Shown: positions 5,409 through 15,699 of the stretch, in pieces
How the letters are laid out: each line of letters opens with the position of its first letter
Numbering within the stretch: position 1 is the first letter of the stretch
Virus record (IMG/VR): IMGVR_UViG_3300005466_000030
Coordinates: 1-59,429 of that record
From: a virus
Length of the DNA: 59,429 bases
Strand: one strand, 5' to 3'
Notes under the pieces: generated by a model
The model's database searches: none
Told to the model about the DNA's origin: nothing
The model's input: only the letters and a program-made list of their open reading frames with translations
Program-made: the position numbers and the translations under genes

Positions 5409-8400
5409 ATGTTCGACGCACTAGGTCGCCTCGCGCTTGGACAATTGCCCGGTGCGCTCGGCGTCGCCGGCAACGGCGCGCTGACCGCAGGCAATGCGGC
5501 ACTCACCGGATCGGGCGTCTCGTCATCGCAAGCCACCGGCGCATTGCCGGCGCAACAGGCGGCGGTCGCCGGCGCCGGCATCGTCGCATCGCTCGGCACT
5601 GGTGCGCTGGCTGCATCATCCGCGAGCCTCGCGGGCGCCGGCATCGCACGCTGGATCGGCAGCGGCGCACTCGCCGCGCAGGGCGCGACGGTCGCCGGCG
5701 CTGGCCTCTCTCGCTCAATCGGTGTCGGCGCGTTCGCTGCAGGCACTGCGACGCTCAGTGGTGCAGGCAGCATCGCATCGGTTGGCGCCGGCGCACCACT
5801 CAGCGGTGCGAGTGCCGTCACCGGCGCCGGCGTCTCAAGTTCGCGCTCGACGTCGGCCACGCTGCTCGCTTCGCTGTCGACGATCACCGGCAGCGGCGCC
5901 GGCATCACGATCACGCTCGGCACCGGCGCGCTGTTCGCGCAGAGCAGCAAGGTCGCCGGCGTCGGCATCTCGGTATCGCTCGGCAGCGGCACGCTCGCCG
6001 CATCAGGCGCAACGCTTGCCGGCAGTGGCGCTGCAATCTGGCGCGCCGCCGGCGTGCTCGCTGCGCAGCCAAGCGCGCTTGCGGGCGCTGGTGTTGCGCG
6101 CTGGATCGGCAGCGGTGCGCTCGCGGTACAGGCCAGCGCGATCGCCGGCGTCGGCATCGCGCACTCAGTGGGGCTTGGCGCTCTTGGCGCTTCGGCCGCG
6201 ACACTGGCCGGCAGCGGGCTGACGCGCTGGTCTGCATCCGGGGCACTCGCGGCTCAGTCGGCGACGCTCGCCGGCGCGGGCATTTCGTTTTCGTTCGGCA
6301 GCGGCGCGCTTGTCACACCGCCCGCAACACTCTTCGGCTTCGGCGGGCAGGGGTTTGCCGGCACTGGCGCGCTCACGGCGCAGCCGAGCACGCTCGCCGG
6401 CGCCGGCATCTCGTCGTCGTCGGGCACTGGCGCGCTCGCGCCCGCGCGCGCGACGCTCGCCGGCAGCGGCATCGCGCAGGCATCCGGCGGCGGCGCGCTC
6501 GCCGCGCAGGGTGTCACGCTTAGCGGCGCGGGTCTCTCGCGCTCGATCGGCGCTGGCGCGCTGGTCGCGCAGCCGGCGACGATCTTCGGGGCTGGCCAGC
6601 CGGCTGCATACGGCAGCGGCGCACTGGTCGCGCCATCGTCGAGCCTCACCGGCAGCGGCGCTGCAGGATACGGCGGCAGCGGCACGCTCGCCGCACAGCC
6701 GGGCACGATCGTCGGTAGCGGCGTCTCGCGCTCGATCGGCACCGGCGCGCTTGCGAGCGGCGCCGGCAGCGTTGTCGGTGTCGGTGCTGTCGGCACCGGC
6801 GGCAACGGTGTGCTGGTCGCCGGCGCGTCCACGGTCGTCGGTGTTCAAGGCATCGAGATCGTCGCCGGGTCCGGCGCGCTGCAGGCGCAAAGCTGTGTCA
6901 TCGTTGGCACGGCTTTGGCCGAATGGCTCGGCGCCGGCGCGCTCGTCGCGCAGGGCGCGCGCGTCACCGGCGCTGGTGCGCAGAGTTGGGGCGGCACTGG
7001 CGCGCTCATCGCGCAGCCATCGAGCCTCACCGGCGCAGGTTTTGCGATCTGGCGCGCGGCCGGCGCGCTCGCCGCACAGCCGTCGGCCGTCAGCGGCGCC
7101 GGCACTGCCGCGCTCGCCGCGTCGGGCGCGCTCATCGCACAGCGTGCGAGCCTGTTCGGCATCGGCGTCTGGAGTTGGGGCGGCAGCGGCATTCTCATCG
7201 CGCAAGGCGCGCGCGTCGTCGGTCTCGGTTCTGCGTTCTGGTACGGTTCCGGCTCGCTCGCCGTTTCGGCATCGACCCTCACTGGCGCCGGCGTTGCGAG
7301 TTGGACGGCGTCGGGATCGCTGGTCGTTTCCTCCCCGTTTGTTGTCGGCGGTCTCGGCGTCGCTTTCTGGTCAGTCTCCGCTGCGCTGCAGGCGCAGCCG
7401 AGCACGATTACCGGCGCCGGCATCTCGGCCTCGACAGCCGCCGGCGTTCTGCAGGCGTCGCTCGCATCCGTCACCGGGTACGAAGGCGTCACCACGATCG
7501 CGGGCACCGGCGCGCCGCGCGCGCAGTCCGCAACGCTCAGCGGGCTCGGTCTCTCGCTCTCGATCGGCACGGGCGCGCTCGCGTGTGCGGGCGCCCACGT
7601 CACCGGCTTCGGTCTGAAGGATTGGGGCGCCGTCGGTGCGCTGCAGGCGCAAGCCGCGCGCCTGATCGGCACCGGCACTGCGCAATGGCTCGCCGCCGGC
7701 GCGTTGTCCGCTTCCGCGTCCAGCCTCAACGGCATCGGCGCTGCAAGCTGGGCCGCGTCCGGCACGCTTAACCCCGGGCAAGCCGCCGTCACCGGCGCCG
7801 GCCTTTCCGGTTCTGTCGGCAGCGCCGCGCTTGTCAGCCAAGCCACAGTTGTCGGCAGCGGCGCGTCGCTGTCACACGGCAGCGGCGCGCTTGCCGCGTC
7901 AGCCGCGATCGTCGTCGGCATCGAGGGTGTCAACGACGTCGCCGCACGCGGCGCGCTCGTCGCGCAGCCGCCAAGCCTTTCCGGCGTCGCGATCGGCGGG
8001 CTTGTCGGCAGCGGTGATCTTGCCGCAGGTAGTGCATCGATCGCAGGCGCCGGCGCGATCACGCAGACACCCGTCGGGCAGATTCTCTATCCCGACGTCG
8101 ACGATCGAAAGCTCGAAGTCGCAGCCGGTGATCGCGTGCTCGAACCGGCGACGGCGAGCAACACGATCGCAGCCACAGCGGCGAGCCGCGTGCTCGTGCC
8201 CGACAGTTTCAGCCGGGTGATCATGGCCGAGGGCGGTGCGCTCGCACTCGGTGTCGAAGCCGCAAGCAGGGCGATCGCAATGCCGGACGTCGGACGCATC
8301 ATCGTGGCCACGGCAACAGGGCGCACCATTTTCGTCGAGCGCAGCAACCGCGTGCTCGCAGCCGAACGCGACGACAGGACGATCGAGACGCCGCGCCGAT

Positions 8401-8420
8401 CGACAAAGCTGGCAGCATAA
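5409..8420 (+). CDS. Giant Gly/Ala/Ser tandem-repeat phage protein
   Basis: A 1003-residue protein. Residues from about 10 to 880 are roughly 40 copies of a 21-residue unit of the form GALAAQ-x-A-S/T-L-AGAGI-x-R/S-x-IGS, with small residues at fixed places and one hydrophobic cluster per repeat. The last 115 residues change to a different repeat of about 8-9 residues built on R-V/I-L/I (DRVLEPA, SRVLVPD, GRIIVAT, DRTIETP). The regular period suggests a beta-solenoid or glycine-rich stacked fibre. It is followed at once by a putative fibre-tail adaptor, which supports a role in the tail tip or whiskers. No enzymatic motif was seen. Confidence 0.75.
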   Translation: MFDALGRLALGQLPGALGVAGNGALTAGNAALTGSGVSSSQATGALPAQQAAVAGAGIVASLGTGALAASSASLAGAGIARWIGSGALAAQGATVAGAGLSRSIGVGAFAAGTATLSGAGSIASVGAGAPLSGASAVTGAGVSSSRSTSATLLASLSTITGSGAGITITLGTGALFAQSSKVAGVGISVSLGSGTLAASGATLAGSGAAIWRAAGVLAAQPSALAGAGVARWIGSGALAVQASAIAGVGIAHSVGLGALGASAATLAGSGLTRWSASGALAAQSATLAGAGISFSFGSGALVTPPATLFGFGGQGFAGTGALTAQPSTLAGAGISSSSGTGALAPARATLAGSGIAQASGGGALAAQGVTLSGAGLSRSIGAGALVAQPATIFGAGQPAAYGSGALVAPSSSLTGSGAAGYGGSGTLAAQPGTIVGSGVSRSIGTGALASGAGSVVGVGAVGTGGNGVLVAGASTVVGVQGIEIVAGSGALQAQSCVIVGTALAEWLGAGALVAQGARVTGAGAQSWGGTGALIAQPSSLTGAGFAIWRAAGALAAQPSAVSGAGTAALAASGALIAQRASLFGIGVWSWGGSGILIAQGARVVGLGSAFWYGSGSLAVSASTLTGAGVASWTASGSLVVSSPFVVGGLGVAFWSVSAALQAQPSTITGAGISASTAAGVLQASLASVTGYEGVTTIAGTGAPRAQSATLSGLGLSLSIGTGALACAGAHVTGFGLKDWGAVGALQAQAARLIGTGTAQWLAAGALSASASSLNGIGAASWAASGTLNPGQAAVTGAGLSGSVGSAALVSQATVVGSGASLSHGSGALAASAAIVVGIEGVNDVAARGALVAQPPSLSGVAIGGLVGSGDLAAGSASIAGAGAITQTPVGQILYPDVDDRKLEVAAGDRVLEPATASNTIAATAASRVLVPDSFSRVIMAEGGALALGVEAASRAIAMPDVGRIIVATATGRTIFVERSNRVLAAERDDRTIETPRRSTKLAA

Positions 8421-9364: not shown

Positions 9365-11248
9365 ATGACATCGATGGCCACCGGCTATCTGTGGGAGCAA
9401 GCCAAACGCAACGCGCTGGCGCGGTTGACGCCGACACAGCGCGCTGCGCTCGCGCGCGCCGAAGCTGAGAAAACACTGGCACGCCTTCGTCGCGAGTATG
9501 ACGAGAGCGAGCACCCGCGCGACGAGACCGGCAAGTGGACCGACGGCGGCGGTGGCGGTGGTGGTGCAGCGTCGAAGCCGGCGTCGTCGAAGGAAGGCGG
9601 TGACGAAGCCGTCAAGCTCGATCCGGTGGTGACCAATGTCGGCGGCGACGACTGGAACAAGAAAACCGCCGAGAAGCTCGAACGCGAGTTTCAGACCGCG
9701 CGTCCGAAGATCGAGCATCTCGAACAGCGCGCGATCGGCAACGTCGAAGACATGAGCGGCGGCGACGACGACGACGAAGACATGGTCTACATGCCGGAAG
9801 AATGGGAAGCGCTGTCGAGCGATGATCAGCAAGAGGCGCACGACGCCTTCATCGAAGCCGTCAAGGACGATTACTACAACAGCGAGGTTGATAACTGGCG
9901 CAGTGAGTACGCCGAGGACGAAGCGATGGCCAAGGTCGCCGGCGAGTTGACCGACAGCAACGGGAACGACTCCGACGACATCGTATGGGCGCAAGAGGCG
10001 CTCGACGAAATCCGCGACGCGCGCGAAGAGGAAGGCAAGGCGCCGATCCCGTTCGACAACAAGCAACTGATCAACGCGATGTCGATCGATTACGAAGCGC
10101 AGGGCGGCTCATGGCCGAAGAAAGATGCCGAGCTTTCGTTCGATGACGACGCGCTGAGCAAGCCGGAAGGTTTCGATCCGGATCAGCAGACGCTGCCCGG
10201 CATGGACCCGATCGCGCCGCACGAGATGCTCAGCGAGGACATGCGCGAAGAGATCGACAAAGCGCTGATGAAGGCGTTCGAGAAGCGTAGCGGGGACGTG
10301 GCCGGCGATCTTGAGCCGCCGGATTATCTGATGGAGAGCGCTAAGGAGTTCGCTGGCGAAAGCTGGGACCAAAAGGACGACAGCGAAAAGTTTGAGTTCG
10401 TCCAGAACAACACCAACATCCTCGAAAAATACGAAGAGACCAGCAGCGGCGCCATCAACGAAATGAAGCTCGATCGGCTGCCGTCGAAATATGATCCGCT
10501 CAACAACACCAGTGGCGACGATTACAAGCGCACGCAGGCGCTGGCGCGCTATCTCTCGCGTGAACGCTCGAAGGAAATCCTCGAAGAACGCGGCCTCGAT
10601 GTGCCATCGGATCAAGACCTGCGCCGCATCGACAACGAGCTTTGGTCAGCTTGGAAGGAAAGCTCGACGTCGAAGGAAGGCAAGCTGATCCAATTGGCGG
10701 CCGCCGAAGAGCTTGGCGGCCGGCTCAATGATCACACCCGCGCGGCGATCGAGCCGGAAGAGGCGAAGGTGCGCGCCGACAGAATCTTTTCCAGCATCGG
10801 CGGCTATGACGGCGTCAAGGCGCTGATCCGCGCGAAATGGGAAACGACGCAGCATCTGCTCGACAAGGCCGGCGAGAACGAACTGCAGCTTTATCGCGGG
10901 CTCACGCTCGACAAGGCACTGGTCGAGAAAATCTTCACCAAGCACGCAGCGGCCGGCAGGCGCGTCGGCAGCTTCACGCATCTCCCGACGATGGATGTGA
11001 AGCGCAACGGCGCCGCGTCGACCACGACAGCGCTCACCGTCGCCAACGGCTGGGGCGGTTCAGGTGGCGGCAAGGTCGTGCTTCGGGCGGTCGTGCCGCG
11101 CACCGCCGCGATCTCGATCCCGGCCTACGGCATCAACATCAAGAGCGAGCAGGAAGTCGTGATCGCCGGCACCGCGTGGAAGGGCTGGGACGTGTGGCAG
11201 GGGCAGGCGCCCGGGCTCGGCGGCACACCGTTGCAGAAGCACGACTGA
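9365..11248 (+). CDS. Putative phage ADP-ribosyltransferase, R-S-E type
   Basis: A 627-residue protein. The C-terminal 120 residues carry the three motifs of arginine-type ADP-ribosyltransferases in order: an Arg on a beta strand (LYRG, R511), an STT motif (552-554) and an ExE motif (E595-Q-E597 in IKSEQEVVIAG). In this family the last Glu is catalytic and the first directs transfer to arginine. The long N-terminal part is acidic and helical, and near residues 40-55 has HPRDETGKWTDGGGG, a motif often found in head- or portal-associated phage proteins. The gene directly precedes the capsid genes. By analogy with T4 Alt it could be packaged and injected to modify host proteins; that is inference. 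ATG 9374 is an alternative start. Confidence 0.72.
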   Translation: MTSMATGYLWEQAKRNALARLTPTQRAALARAEAEKTLARLRREYDESEHPRDETGKWTDGGGGGGGAASKPASSKEGGDEAVKLDPVVTNVGGDDWNKKTAEKLEREFQTARPKIEHLEQRAIGNVEDMSGGDDDDEDMVYMPEEWEALSSDDQQEAHDAFIEAVKDDYYNSEVDNWRSEYAEDEAMAKVAGELTDSNGNDSDDIVWAQEALDEIRDAREEEGKAPIPFDNKQLINAMSIDYEAQGGSWPKKDAELSFDDDALSKPEGFDPDQQTLPGMDPIAPHEMLSEDMREEIDKALMKAFEKRSGDVAGDLEPPDYLMESAKEFAGESWDQKDDSEKFEFVQNNTNILEKYEETSSGAINEMKLDRLPSKYDPLNNTSGDDYKRTQALARYLSRERSKEILEERGLDVPSDQDLRRIDNELWSAWKESSTSKEGKLIQLAAAEELGGRLNDHTRAAIEPEEAKVRADRIFSSIGGYDGVKALIRAKWETTQHLLDKAGENELQLYRGLTLDKALVEKIFTKHAAAGRRVGSFTHLPTMDVKRNGAASTTTALTVANGWGGSGGGKVVLRAVVPRTAAISIPAYGINIKSEQEVVIAGTAWKGWDVWQGQAPGLGGTPLQKHD

Positions 11249-11250
11249 TC

Positions 11251-11463
11251 ATGGCGAAAAAACCAGACAAGCACGAGATCGACATTCTCGCGCACGAGAT
11301 GGAAACCGGCGCGCCGCACTGGCTGAGCGCGCAAGGCAAGCGCACCAACGAGACCGAGGAAGAGCGCAAGAAGCGCATCCGCGACAAGCACTATCGCAAG
11401 CATCTCGCCACGCGCGCGCGGGCGAGAGCCGAGACGACACTGGCGCGCACCAAGCCGAAGTAG
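11251..11463 (+). CDS. Small Lys/Arg-rich protein
   Basis: A 70-residue, strongly charged protein starting 2 bases after the ADP-ribosyltransferase stop. The middle (TEEERKKRIRDKHYRKH) is a basic helix and the C-terminus is RA-rich. It could bind nucleic acid or act with the preceding enzyme. The close spacing suggests co-expression. No known domain was recognised. Confidence 0.55.
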   Translation: MAKKPDKHEIDILAHEMETGAPHWLSAQGKRTNETEEERKKRIRDKHYRKHLATRARARAETTLARTKPK

Positions 11464-11541: not shown

Positions 11542-11554
11542 GGAGGGCATGACC

Positions 11555-13810
11555 ATGCCGATGAAGCCGAACAAGGGCGAGAGCCAAGCCGATTTTATGA
11601 AGCGCTGCGTGCCCGACATGATGGGCGACGGCAAGCGCGACAACGAGCAGGCGACCGCTGCCTGCCTCACCATGTTCAGCGAGGGCGAGAAGGAAAAGCG
11701 CAAGTCGCTCACGCCCGAGGACGACGAAGAGTTCGCCGACTGGATGGATCGCTGCCAAGAGGGCGGCGAGGACGCGGACGAATGCCGCGTGATCTGGGCC
11801 GACACGCGCAGCGCCAAGATCAAGAGCAACGGCAACGTCGTGCGCAAGACGCACGCCGAGCCGGTGGTCGAGCGCGAATTCGTCATGTCCGATGAAACGC
11901 CCGATCGGATGAACGACATCATCATGTCGACCGGCTGGGATTTGGAGAACTTCAAGAAAAATCCGGTCGCGCTGTTCAACCACAACAGCAACTGGCCGAT
12001 CGGCACATGGTCGAACCTGCGCGTGGTCGACGGCAAGCTGCGCGGCAAGCTCGATCTCCTGCCCAAAGGAAAGATTCCGCGCGTCGATGAAATTCACGCG
12101 CTGATCGAGCACGGCATTCTCAAAGCCGTGAGCGTCGGCTTCGCGCCGAAAAAGCACGAACCGATCGTCAAGGGCGATCCCTTCGCGGGCTCGCGCTACC
12201 TCGCTCAAGAGTTGGTCGAGACATCACTGGTGACGGTGCCGGCCAATCCGAACGCACTCGCGGTCGCCAAGTCTCTCAGCATTTCCGACGACACGATCAA
12301 GCGCGTCTTTGCCAAGCCCGGCAGCCGGGACGCGCTCGAACACGATCGTCGGCTCACCGGCAAGCCCGCCGACACATCTCCCATAGTGGGCAAGTCAATG
12401 TCTGCCTTTGCACAACGTATCACTGACTCGCAGGCGCGCATCGTCGCCTACCGAGACAAGCTGACTGAGCATCTCAAGAACGTCGACGACAGCAATGTCA
12501 GCGACGCCGACCTTGAAGTGACCAACGAACTGAACGCGAGGATCAAGCAGGAAGAAAAGAGCCTCGCGTCGCTCAAGGAGTCCGAGAAGAGCCTGTTGCT
12601 TTCGAACGACGCCGACAACGGCAATGGCAACGGCCACGACAAGGGCAACGGCTCGGCGATCGCCGCCGCGTCGATGCGCTCGGCCCGGCCGTTCGGCTTC
12701 AAGCCGAAGACGATCGACCCGATCGAGTATCTGGTGCGTGACGGCGTGGTGCGGCTGTTCGCCCACCGCGAGAAGCGCAACGTCGACGAGATGCGCAAGC
12801 TGATCTACGGCGACGACGAAGCGACCAAGGTGTTCATCGACTTCACGTCAAAGGCGGCCAGTGCGCCGGCGATGACCAACGTCGTCGGATGGGCCGCTGA
12901 ACTGATCCAGCAAGTCAACGCCGACTTCCTTGAGCCGCTCTATCCCAACGTGGTGTTCCCGTCGCTTGCGGGGCAGGGGCTTTCCCTGTCGTTCGGTCGC
13001 AACGGTCGCATCTCGGTGCCGACGCGCTCGCTGACGCCGACGATCGCCGGTTCGTTCGTTGGTGAAGGCCAGCCGATCCCGGTGCGGCAGGGTGCGTTCA
13101 CGGCGGCGATCCTCACGCCGAAGAAAATGGCCGTGATCACCACGTGGACTCGCGAACTCGACGAGCATTCGATTCCTGCGATCGAAGGCTTGCTGCGTGA
13201 TGCGATCAAGCAGGACACGGCGGTGTCGATCGATGCCGTGCTGCTCGATTCCAACCCGGCGACGGCGGTTCGTCCCGCCGGCTTGCTCAACGGCGTTGCG
13301 TCTCTGACGCCGACGACGGGCGGCGGCTTCGCTGCGGTGGTGGGCGATCTGCAGAAGATCGCCGGCGCGCTGATGACCGGGACCAACGGCAACATCCGCA
13401 AGATGGTCTGGCTGATCAACCCGGCGCAGAAGCTGACGCTGTCGTTGACCAGCGCACCGGGCACTGGCGCGTTCCCGTTCAAGGAAGAGATCGGGCGCAA
13501 CCAGTTGCTGACCTACCCGGTGATCGCTGCGGGCACCGTGCCGGTTGGCACCGTGATCGCGGTCGATGCCGCCGACTTCGTGTCCGTCGGTGGCGAGGCG
13601 CCCCGGTTCGAGATTTCGGATCAGGCCACGCTGCACATGGAAGACACGCTGCCGCTCGCGATCGGCACGCCGGGCACGCCCGCCGTTGTCGCCGCGCCGG
13701 TGCGGTCGCTCTATCAGACCGACAGCTTGGCGCTGCGGCTGATCATGCCGCTGAACTGGACGCTGCGCCGCTCTGGCGTGGTGGCGTGGATGGCCGGCGT
13801 CACTTGGTGA
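11555..13810 (+). CDS. Prohead protease fused to HK97-type major capsid protein
   Basis: A 751-residue fusion. The N-terminal 60 residues contain the SQADFMKRCVPDM/ATAACLTMF motif often found ahead of prohead proteases. Next comes an S78-type protease with H143 (LFNHNSNWPIG), S193 (LKAVSVGF) and the LVETSLVTVPANPNA strand. A charged coiled-coil stretch (about 270-340) probably acts as scaffold. The rest, from about 370 (DPIEYLVRDG), is an HK97-fold capsid protein ending in GVVAWMAGVTW. The protease should cleave the scaffold during maturation and release capsid subunits. GGAGGG at 11542 is 7 bases from ATG 11555 but only one base from ATG 11549, so 11555 is preferred. Confidence 0.9.
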   Translation: MPMKPNKGESQADFMKRCVPDMMGDGKRDNEQATAACLTMFSEGEKEKRKSLTPEDDEEFADWMDRCQEGGEDADECRVIWADTRSAKIKSNGNVVRKTHAEPVVEREFVMSDETPDRMNDIIMSTGWDLENFKKNPVALFNHNSNWPIGTWSNLRVVDGKLRGKLDLLPKGKIPRVDEIHALIEHGILKAVSVGFAPKKHEPIVKGDPFAGSRYLAQELVETSLVTVPANPNALAVAKSLSISDDTIKRVFAKPGSRDALEHDRRLTGKPADTSPIVGKSMSAFAQRITDSQARIVAYRDKLTEHLKNVDDSNVSDADLEVTNELNARIKQEEKSLASLKESEKSLLLSNDADNGNGNGHDKGNGSAIAAASMRSARPFGFKPKTIDPIEYLVRDGVVRLFAHREKRNVDEMRKLIYGDDEATKVFIDFTSKAASAPAMTNVVGWAAELIQQVNADFLEPLYPNVVFPSLAGQGLSLSFGRNGRISVPTRSLTPTIAGSFVGEGQPIPVRQGAFTAAILTPKKMAVITTWTRELDEHSIPAIEGLLRDAIKQDTAVSIDAVLLDSNPATAVRPAGLLNGVASLTPTTGGGFAAVVGDLQKIAGALMTGTNGNIRKMVWLINPAQKLTLSLTSAPGTGAFPFKEEIGRNQLLTYPVIAAGTVPVGTVIAVDAADFVSVGGEAPRFEISDQATLHMEDTLPLAIGTPGTPAVVAAPVRSLYQTDSLALRLIMPLNWTLRRSGVVAWMAGVTW

Positions 13811-14244: not shown

Positions 14245-15699
14245 ATGAGGCACGTTCCGCTCGTAGGCCGTGCGCCCTCGCCCGTCACGAAGGGCGAGGG
14301 CGATTATCATCCCGGCCCGTGGCAGCTACCTGTCACGGGCGGGATTCTGCCTGCCTATGTCGGCGAGAACATCAACTGGTGGCAGCTTGGTTATGACCCG
14401 GTCGATATGTCCGGCTCGTCGGCGATGGTCGAAGCCGCGCTCTCGGCCTACAGCCAGACCGTGGCGATGTGCCCGGGCGATCACTGGCGACTGAACACCA
14501 AGAAGGGCCGCGATCGCGTCACCACGTCGGCGCTGTCGCGCATCCTGCGCAAGCCGAACCTGTATCAAACGATCAGCGATTTCATGCTGGCGCTGACGCG
14601 CTCGCTGTTTCTCGACGGCAACGCCTACGCGCTGGCATTGCGCAACGATCGCTACGAGATCGACGAGCTTCATCTGATGAGCCCGCGCCAGTCGGCGCCG
14701 CAGGTCGTGCGCTCGACCGGCGATGTGTTCTATCGGCTCGGCGGCAATGACGTGATGGAGCGCTTGGGCGAAGTGCTGGTGCCGCAGCGCGACGTGCTGC
14801 ACGTGCGCTTGCATCCTTCGCGGCGCTATCCGTTCCCGCTGATCGGCGCTTCACCGATCGAGGCGGCAGCGTCCGACATCGCGGCGGGCAACGCGATGCT
14901 GAAGCAACAGATCAATTTCTACATGAACCAAGCGCGGCCGAGCGCCGTGCTGTCGACCGACCTGCAGCTTGACAAGGATCAGGTGCAGGCGCTGCGCGAT
15001 CGCTGGAACGAACAGGTGCGTGGGCTGCAGCAAGGCGGCACGCCGATCCTCACCGCCGGCCTGAAGGTGCAGCCGTGGGCGATCGGCGCGAAGGACGCCG
15101 AGCTTGCCGAGATCATGAAGCTGTCGGGGCAGAACATCGCGCTGGCCTATCGCATCCCGCTCGCACTGCTCGGTCTCGGTGGCACCGGCGTCACGTCGAC
15201 CGAGGCGCTGATGCAGCAATGGATCGCCACCGGGCTCGGCTTCGCGCTCAACCACATCGAAGAGGCGTTCGGGTTGTTATTCCAATTGAAGGGACAGCCC
15301 GAAGAATATCTCGAATTCGAGACCAACGCGTTGCTGCGCTCGGCTTTCAAGGATCGCATCGATGCGCTCGCACGCGGTGTGCAGGGCGGCATCTTGGCGC
15401 CGAACGAAGCACGCGAGCGCGAAGGACTCGACAATGTCGAGTTCGGCGACGAGCCGCGCGTGCAACAGCAAGTCGTTCCGCTCTCGGCGGCCGGCGCGAT
15501 CCCGGCAGCGCCCGGTCCCGGCGCGCCGCCATCGGTGTCCGGCGCGCCGACTGCGCTGCTCGCCAAGCCCGACGAAAAGAAACCGTCCGAGCCGCCCGCG
15601 TCACCAGTCGAAGGCAAAGGCCATGACGACAACGTCCAACGGGAAGTCAGAAACATCCTACGCGCCGCCTCAAGGATTGGCCGCCGACGATCTGCTTGA
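14245..15699 (+). CDS. HK97-family portal protein
   Basis: A 484-residue portal. It forms the dodecameric ring at the head vertex through which DNA enters and leaves, and it docks TerL. Family features include AYSQTVAMCPGDHWRL, DFMLALTRSLFLDGNAYAL, ASPIEAAASDI, the stem region GKLSGQNIALAYRIPLALLG-like segment at about 292-311, and ILAPNEARE near the C-terminus. The start at 14245 is 2 bases after the previous stop but has a poor SD, and the first 20 codons overlap a perfect hairpin, so the true N-terminus may be later. The portal follows the capsid gene here, the reverse of the usual HK97 order. Confidence 0.92.
   Translation: MRHVPLVGRAPSPVTKGEGDYHPGPWQLPVTGGILPAYVGENINWWQLGYDPVDMSGSSAMVEAALSAYSQTVAMCPGDHWRLNTKKGRDRVTTSALSRILRKPNLYQTISDFMLALTRSLFLDGNAYALALRNDRYEIDELHLMSPRQSAPQVVRSTGDVFYRLGGNDVMERLGEVLVPQRDVLHVRLHPSRRYPFPLIGASPIEAAASDIAAGNAMLKQQINFYMNQARPSAVLSTDLQLDKDQVQALRDRWNEQVRGLQQGGTPILTAGLKVQPWAIGAKDAELAEIMKLSGQNIALAYRIPLALLGLGGTGVTSTEALMQQWIATGLGFALNHIEEAFGLLFQLKGQPEEYLEFETNALLRSAFKDRIDALARGVQGGILAPNEAREREGLDNVEFGDEPRVQQQVVPLSAAGAIPAAPGPGAPPSVSGAPTALLAKPDEKKPSEPPASPVEGKGHDDNVQREVRNILRAASRIGRRRSA
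14274..14301 (+). repeat. Perfect 10-bp stem hairpin at the portal gene start
   Basis: Arms GCCCTCGCCC (14274-14283) and GGGCGAGGGC (14292-14301) form a perfect stem around 8 bases. There is no T tract. It lies 30-57 bases into the portal reading frame, where it could slow ribosomes or expose a later start, or it could be a mobile intergenic repeat onto which the gene start has been extended. Confidence 0.7.

Follow-up and report, generated by a model that had tools for sequence, protein, structure and literature searches.

A conserved phage ADP-ribosyltransferase domain with an acidic partner, predicted to be carried in the head of a Mu-tailed virus

Phage ADP-ribosyltransferases (ARTs) have been described in several forms. 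Published examples include ARTs packaged in the head as fusions to MuF or portal proteins (PMC9503650) and polyvalent proteins, in which an ART is joined to head proteins and other effector domains and injection is predicted (PMC9503650, PMC5512222), and temperate phages are known to carry ART toxins linked to MuF (PMC5576092). The viral ART families named in PMC9503650 and PMC5512222 include N4-like, PART, ORF28, p0068, Alt/VIP2 and Mod. Injection from the head is a property of Alt but not of the T4 Mod proteins (PMC5512222). Here we describe an ART gene in a viral DNA of 59,429 nucleotides (IMG/VR record IMGVR_UViG_3300005466_000030, positions 1 to 59,429), the whole of which we call the window. 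On balance, its product is probably a head-packaged mono-ADP-ribosyltransferase effector that acts on host proteins early in infection.

The gene (9365..11248, + strand) is an open frame of 627 residues, and relatives of the same layout occur at the related loci L002, L003 and L004. An earlier note, made from the sequence alone, had read three ART motifs near the C-terminus, and their placement stands: R511 (in LYRGL, 10895..10897), S552-T553-T554 (GAASTT, 11018..11026) and E595-Q-E597 (SEQEVV, 11147..11155). The family was assembled stepwise from closer viral relatives, two Bradyrhizobium prophages and 66 viral loci, and about 60 relatives were usable as a profile. In an alignment (A3) of 40 sequences, 42–94% identical to the window protein, 30 of the 174 ART columns are invariant and include R511, S552, E595 and E597, each present in 40/40 (hypergeometric p about 7e-4). 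A wider set of 55 sequences, mis-cut rows included, retained R in 52/55, S in 47/55, and E595 and E597 in 54/55 each. The ART part is under purifying selection (ratio of nonsynonymous to synonymous substitution rates, dN/dS, about 0.19 and 0.24). In L074, L075 and L078, large insertions separate the R strand of the ART domain from its ExE strand.

The domain has no name in Pfam, PHROG, NCBIfam or PADLOC. The window protein gave nothing usable by hmmscan (Pfam, PHROGs) or tblastn (phages, plasmids), the relatives' alignments drew no result from NCBIfam or PADLOC, and phmmer and hmmsearch against the PDB returned chance matches only; the PHROG matches of the family were weak and carried no function name. 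As a search of 392 genomes from the family of the Bradyrhizobium host gave no place beyond that already known, the domain is rare in the genomes searched. A profile search, which the earlier note had proposed as a check, placed two known families above all controls: when the family profile was compared by hhalign, dinitrogenase reductase ADP-ribosyltransferase (DRAT) scored 34.2 (P 2.8e-4) over 92 columns with all three motifs in register, and T4 Mod (ModA/ModB) scored 24.9 (P 4.9e-3) with register kept over the first and second motifs, while reversed and column-shuffled controls reached at most 21.4.

Structure prediction, proposed in the same place, matched the ART fold with two models. The AlphaFold2 model of the core (residues 454–627, 10724-11245; predicted local distance difference test score, pLDDT, 83; predicted template modelling score, pTM, 0.77) retrieved cholera toxin A1, the Rhs toxins TreX and TreTu, PARPs and KptA with Foldseek and VIA-align, in rows that were almost all of ART fold. 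With a longer model (residues 84–627; pLDDT 86, pTM 0.60) the best 24 VIA-align rows were all ART-fold, at Z 6.0 to 3.5, and the first non-ART row stood at Z 3.3; the matches comprised an ART-ARH effector, Certhrax, Plx2A, iota toxin, Vis, ART2.2, C2I, ExoS, C3 and others. Against BFVD, Foldseek matched the longer model to phage proteins, one of them named head morphogenesis protein. The R, S and ExE positions lie on strands or at strand starts in the models, R511 being residue 58 of the core model, within a beta strand at 53–61. Each structural score is low, the two models agree and no competing fold appeared; together with the order of the motifs, this supports an ART of the R-S-E clade, and the earlier assignment is upheld by conservation, profile alignment and predicted fold. 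Since the VIA-align rows cover residues 293–544 of the longer model, which are residues 376–627 of the protein, the ART domain in the structural sense probably starts near residue 376 (10490..11245, + strand). The interval first proposed, 10895-11248, spans R511 to the stop codon; it does contain the motifs but begins later than the predicted fold.

Read from its sequence, the window protein is a minimal form made of an N-terminal tag, a PRDxxGKW/glycine linker, an acidic helical domain and the basic ART domain. The basic tag (residues 4–43, 9374..9493) resembles the N-terminus of a small protein encoded downstream in L004 (63% identity over 40 residues), so that the two appear to have one 40-residue N-terminus, a swapped tag; phrog_4113 weakly matches residues 16–48. 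The linker (residues 50–67, 9512..9565) consists of HPRDETGKW (residues 50–58, 9512-9538), present as the earlier note had said, and a glycine-rich stretch. It is followed by the acidic domain, predicted helical and marked by VGGDxWN (residues 84–375, 9614..10489). The description of a large acidic protein holds for the whole chain (isoelectric point, pI, 4.6), but the acidity is confined to residues 84–453 (pI 4.2); the ART part (residues 454–627) is basic (pI 9.6), and so is the start of the protein. The acidic domain immediately precedes the ART in practically every complete relative; the other modules vary from one relative to the next. One could speculate that the acidic partner pairs by charge with the basic ART or restrains it before delivery.

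The strongest evidence for head carriage comes from portal fusions in relatives, which involve two unrelated portal families: the acidic-ART unit shares one polypeptide with Phage_portal_3 in L041, L048 and L036, and with a lambda-family portal in L054 and L058. In many relatives the ART gene also sits among terminase, capsid and portal genes. These observations give indirect but strong support to the prediction, already made in the earlier note, that the window protein is carried in the head. By their sequences, some relatives qualify as polyvalent head-linked effectors, with several effector domains and a virion protein in one polypeptide. A third indirect line is the PRDxxGx[WF] linker: the unique ART proteins contain it 50 times, against 0.16 times in shuffles, and in 24/45 it lies 27–50 residues ahead of the acidic domain.

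The other modules suggest a role. Acb1 is an anti-CBASS (cyclic oligonucleotide-based antiphage signalling system) enzyme that degrades defence nucleotides, and it forms one polypeptide together with the ART in L072, L051 and L052 (Pfam E down to 5.5e-44); L033 has an Acb1-like stretch in its ART polypeptide, by similarity only. Acetyltransferase-like and redox modules are also found in the ART polypeptides of relatives, and DUF7178 is an extra module in those of the Bradyrhizobium prophages. Because of Acb1, the most likely role is that of an injected kit directed against host defence, or used for takeover as with T4 Alt. More tentatively, and with some doubt, the PRDxxGx[WF]-glycine leader may mark interchangeable head cargo, a variable kit (ART, Acb1, Zeta toxin, acetyltransferase and others) mounted on a portal, a protease-capsid polyprotein or a small carrier, with the linker cut or sorted by the head protease and the ART with its acidic partner as the core item.

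PRD-led sequences also occur in other settings. At L021:6510-9881 a PRD-led module with DGHHxW-type sequence is fused to an S78 protease-capsid polyprotein, which also speaks for head carriage; the same is seen in L027, L029 and L031, with Pfam support given for L021 only. Zeta toxin domains stand behind a PRDxxGRW linker at L032:11194-12522 and L040:6030-7688. At L072:6371-7246, a relative of the small open reading frame (ORF) downstream of the window gene is joined via HPRDDRGRF to what looks by eye like a second ART domain, reading FWRGT ... SSSSS ... ENEVIL and having no Pfam match.

We propose that the ART protein is made alongside the late head proteins and then enters the prohead, the N-terminal tag, the linker and the acidic domain being candidate packaging signals. 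It would be injected together with the DNA, and its C-terminal R-S-E domain, for which both conservation and the predicted fold speak, would use NAD (nicotinamide adenine dinucleotide). The target would be arginine on one or more host proteins, ADP-ribosylated early in infection, as the ExE motif and the relation to DRAT and Mod suggest, and the purpose may be host takeover or suppression of host defences. In relatives, modular polypeptides linked to the head would carry the acidic-ART unit alongside other cargo. Several points weigh against this proposal. Both head carriage and enzyme activity of the window protein are predicted, the portal fusions belong to relatives and are absent from the window, and no known fold is recognised in the acidic domain. 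The structural matches are also weak by some measures: the best Foldseek E-value against the PDB is 7e-3 and VIA-align Z is at most 6.0, and with the longer model in Foldseek against the PDB alone, ARTs are not top-ranked and helical chance matches dominate. Finally, in a divergent subgroup (L062-L071, L075 and L078) the STT segment is not recognisable, and ExE remains.

The loss of STT in that subgroup would suit a catalytically dead ART-fold domain retained as a structural part of the head, but none of R, S and ExE changes across 40 sequences in which most columns vary, and we consider this the most improbable explanation of all. An active ART might instead be made late, stay unpackaged and act either in the producing cell, where its targets could for example be host or phage proteins at the time of assembly or lysis, or in the lysogen. 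The position of the gene in the late region would allow late action in the same cell; against this, ARTs fused to portals of two families can hardly be other than head-associated in those relatives, and the small carrier-like gene and the common linker suggest cargo, which leaves an unpackaged enzyme unlikely.

A head-packaged ART-fold enzyme could also have a different product, through NAD hydrolysis or modification of another residue, a nucleic acid or a defence signal. ART folds do include NADases and nucleic-acid modifiers (PMC9503650). The basic charge of the window's ART part fits such a reading. So does the presence in the same polypeptide, in some relatives, of an enzyme that degrades defence nucleotides. 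Yet R, S and ExE together are the signature of enzymes that modify arginine in proteins, and DRAT and T4 Mod, whose profiles came closest, act on protein; a different product thus seems rather unlikely to us. MuF-linked ART toxins of temperate phages (PMC5576092) and the Zeta modules behind the same linker in L032 and L040 would be in line with a toxin of the polymorphic, MuF-like type that comes with an immunity gene and serves against competitor bacteria, not for infection. The window record has no MuF domain (PF04233), no ADP-ribosylglycohydrolase of the DraG type (PF03747) was matched in 32 records, many of them fragments, and the window-type small ORF is confined to the closest relatives and one fusion. 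With no constant partner gene, we rejected the toxin-immunity explanation as very unlikely. An injected effector that modifies host proteins remains the reading that we favour.

In the window, 5' of the ART gene are a large terminase gene and a tail-fibre-like gene (Pfam, PHROGs). Downstream, on the + strand, a prohead protease S78 fused to the major capsid protein (11549..13810; Pfam and PHROGs) is followed by the portal protein (14245..15699; Pfam PF04860, E 8e-67). The ART gene had been placed just before the protease-capsid gene; it is indeed close upstream, but the small ORF of 70 codons (11251..11463, + strand) intervenes. The tail genes are Mu-like and contractile, in agreement with the earlier description, and a serine recombinase is present at the right end. 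A 1003-residue alanine-glycine repeat protein is encoded at 5409-8420; it has no family match, and related genes occur in the closest phages.

Because MuF- and portal-fused ARTs, polyvalent proteins and MuF toxins are already published, the ART family is a variant of a known theme. What is new, judging from the sequences, is an ART family unnamed in the four libraries searched, its constant acidic partner and the common linker; the passages of PMC9503650 and PMC5512222 consulted here hold no description of the latter two. The family would join the few enzymes which phages probably deliver along with their DNA, and Acb1 and ART in one polypeptide suggest a pre-made counter-defence that acts before any phage gene expression. 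The relatives integrated in Bradyrhizobium offer a laboratory route, and if the linker is a loading or cutting signal, head cargo would become predictable from sequence.

Among known systems, DRAT (PF07357) is the closest sequence profile found, with LYRG/LHRG, STT/SFT and SEQEVV/GEGEYLV in register. A single member of our family reached the Pfam model (E 2e-4), with 19.6 bits against a cut-off of 25 and over positions 188–250 only, and we do not count the family as DRAT. The two differ in that the ART core alone is common to them and ours has a phage head context, not nitrogenase control; with no DraG partner in the 32 records either, we set aside nitrogenase control as the meaning of this relation. 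With T4 ModA/ModB, LYRG and the S motif align, but the match is weaker than with DRAT, the alignment ends before ExE, and the Mod proteins are small. T4 Alt has the same R / S / ExE arrangement (TLYRS, FVSTSL and SNEMEVIL, as read from L089), with the ART placed close to the C-terminus of a large protein, a contractile-tailed phage, and head packaging and injection, here predicted. No profile relation to it was detected (hhalign 17.3 against a single Alt sequence, within the control range), and the window family is set apart by its constant acidic VGGDxWN partner, its PRDxxGxW linker and, in relatives, portal fusions. The term Alt-like, used in the earlier note, fits only the predicted way of working; membership of the Alt family was not detected. 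With the MuF-ART and portal-ART fusions, finally, the family has in common that, in relatives, the ART is placed on head proteins together with other effectors and that injection is predicted.
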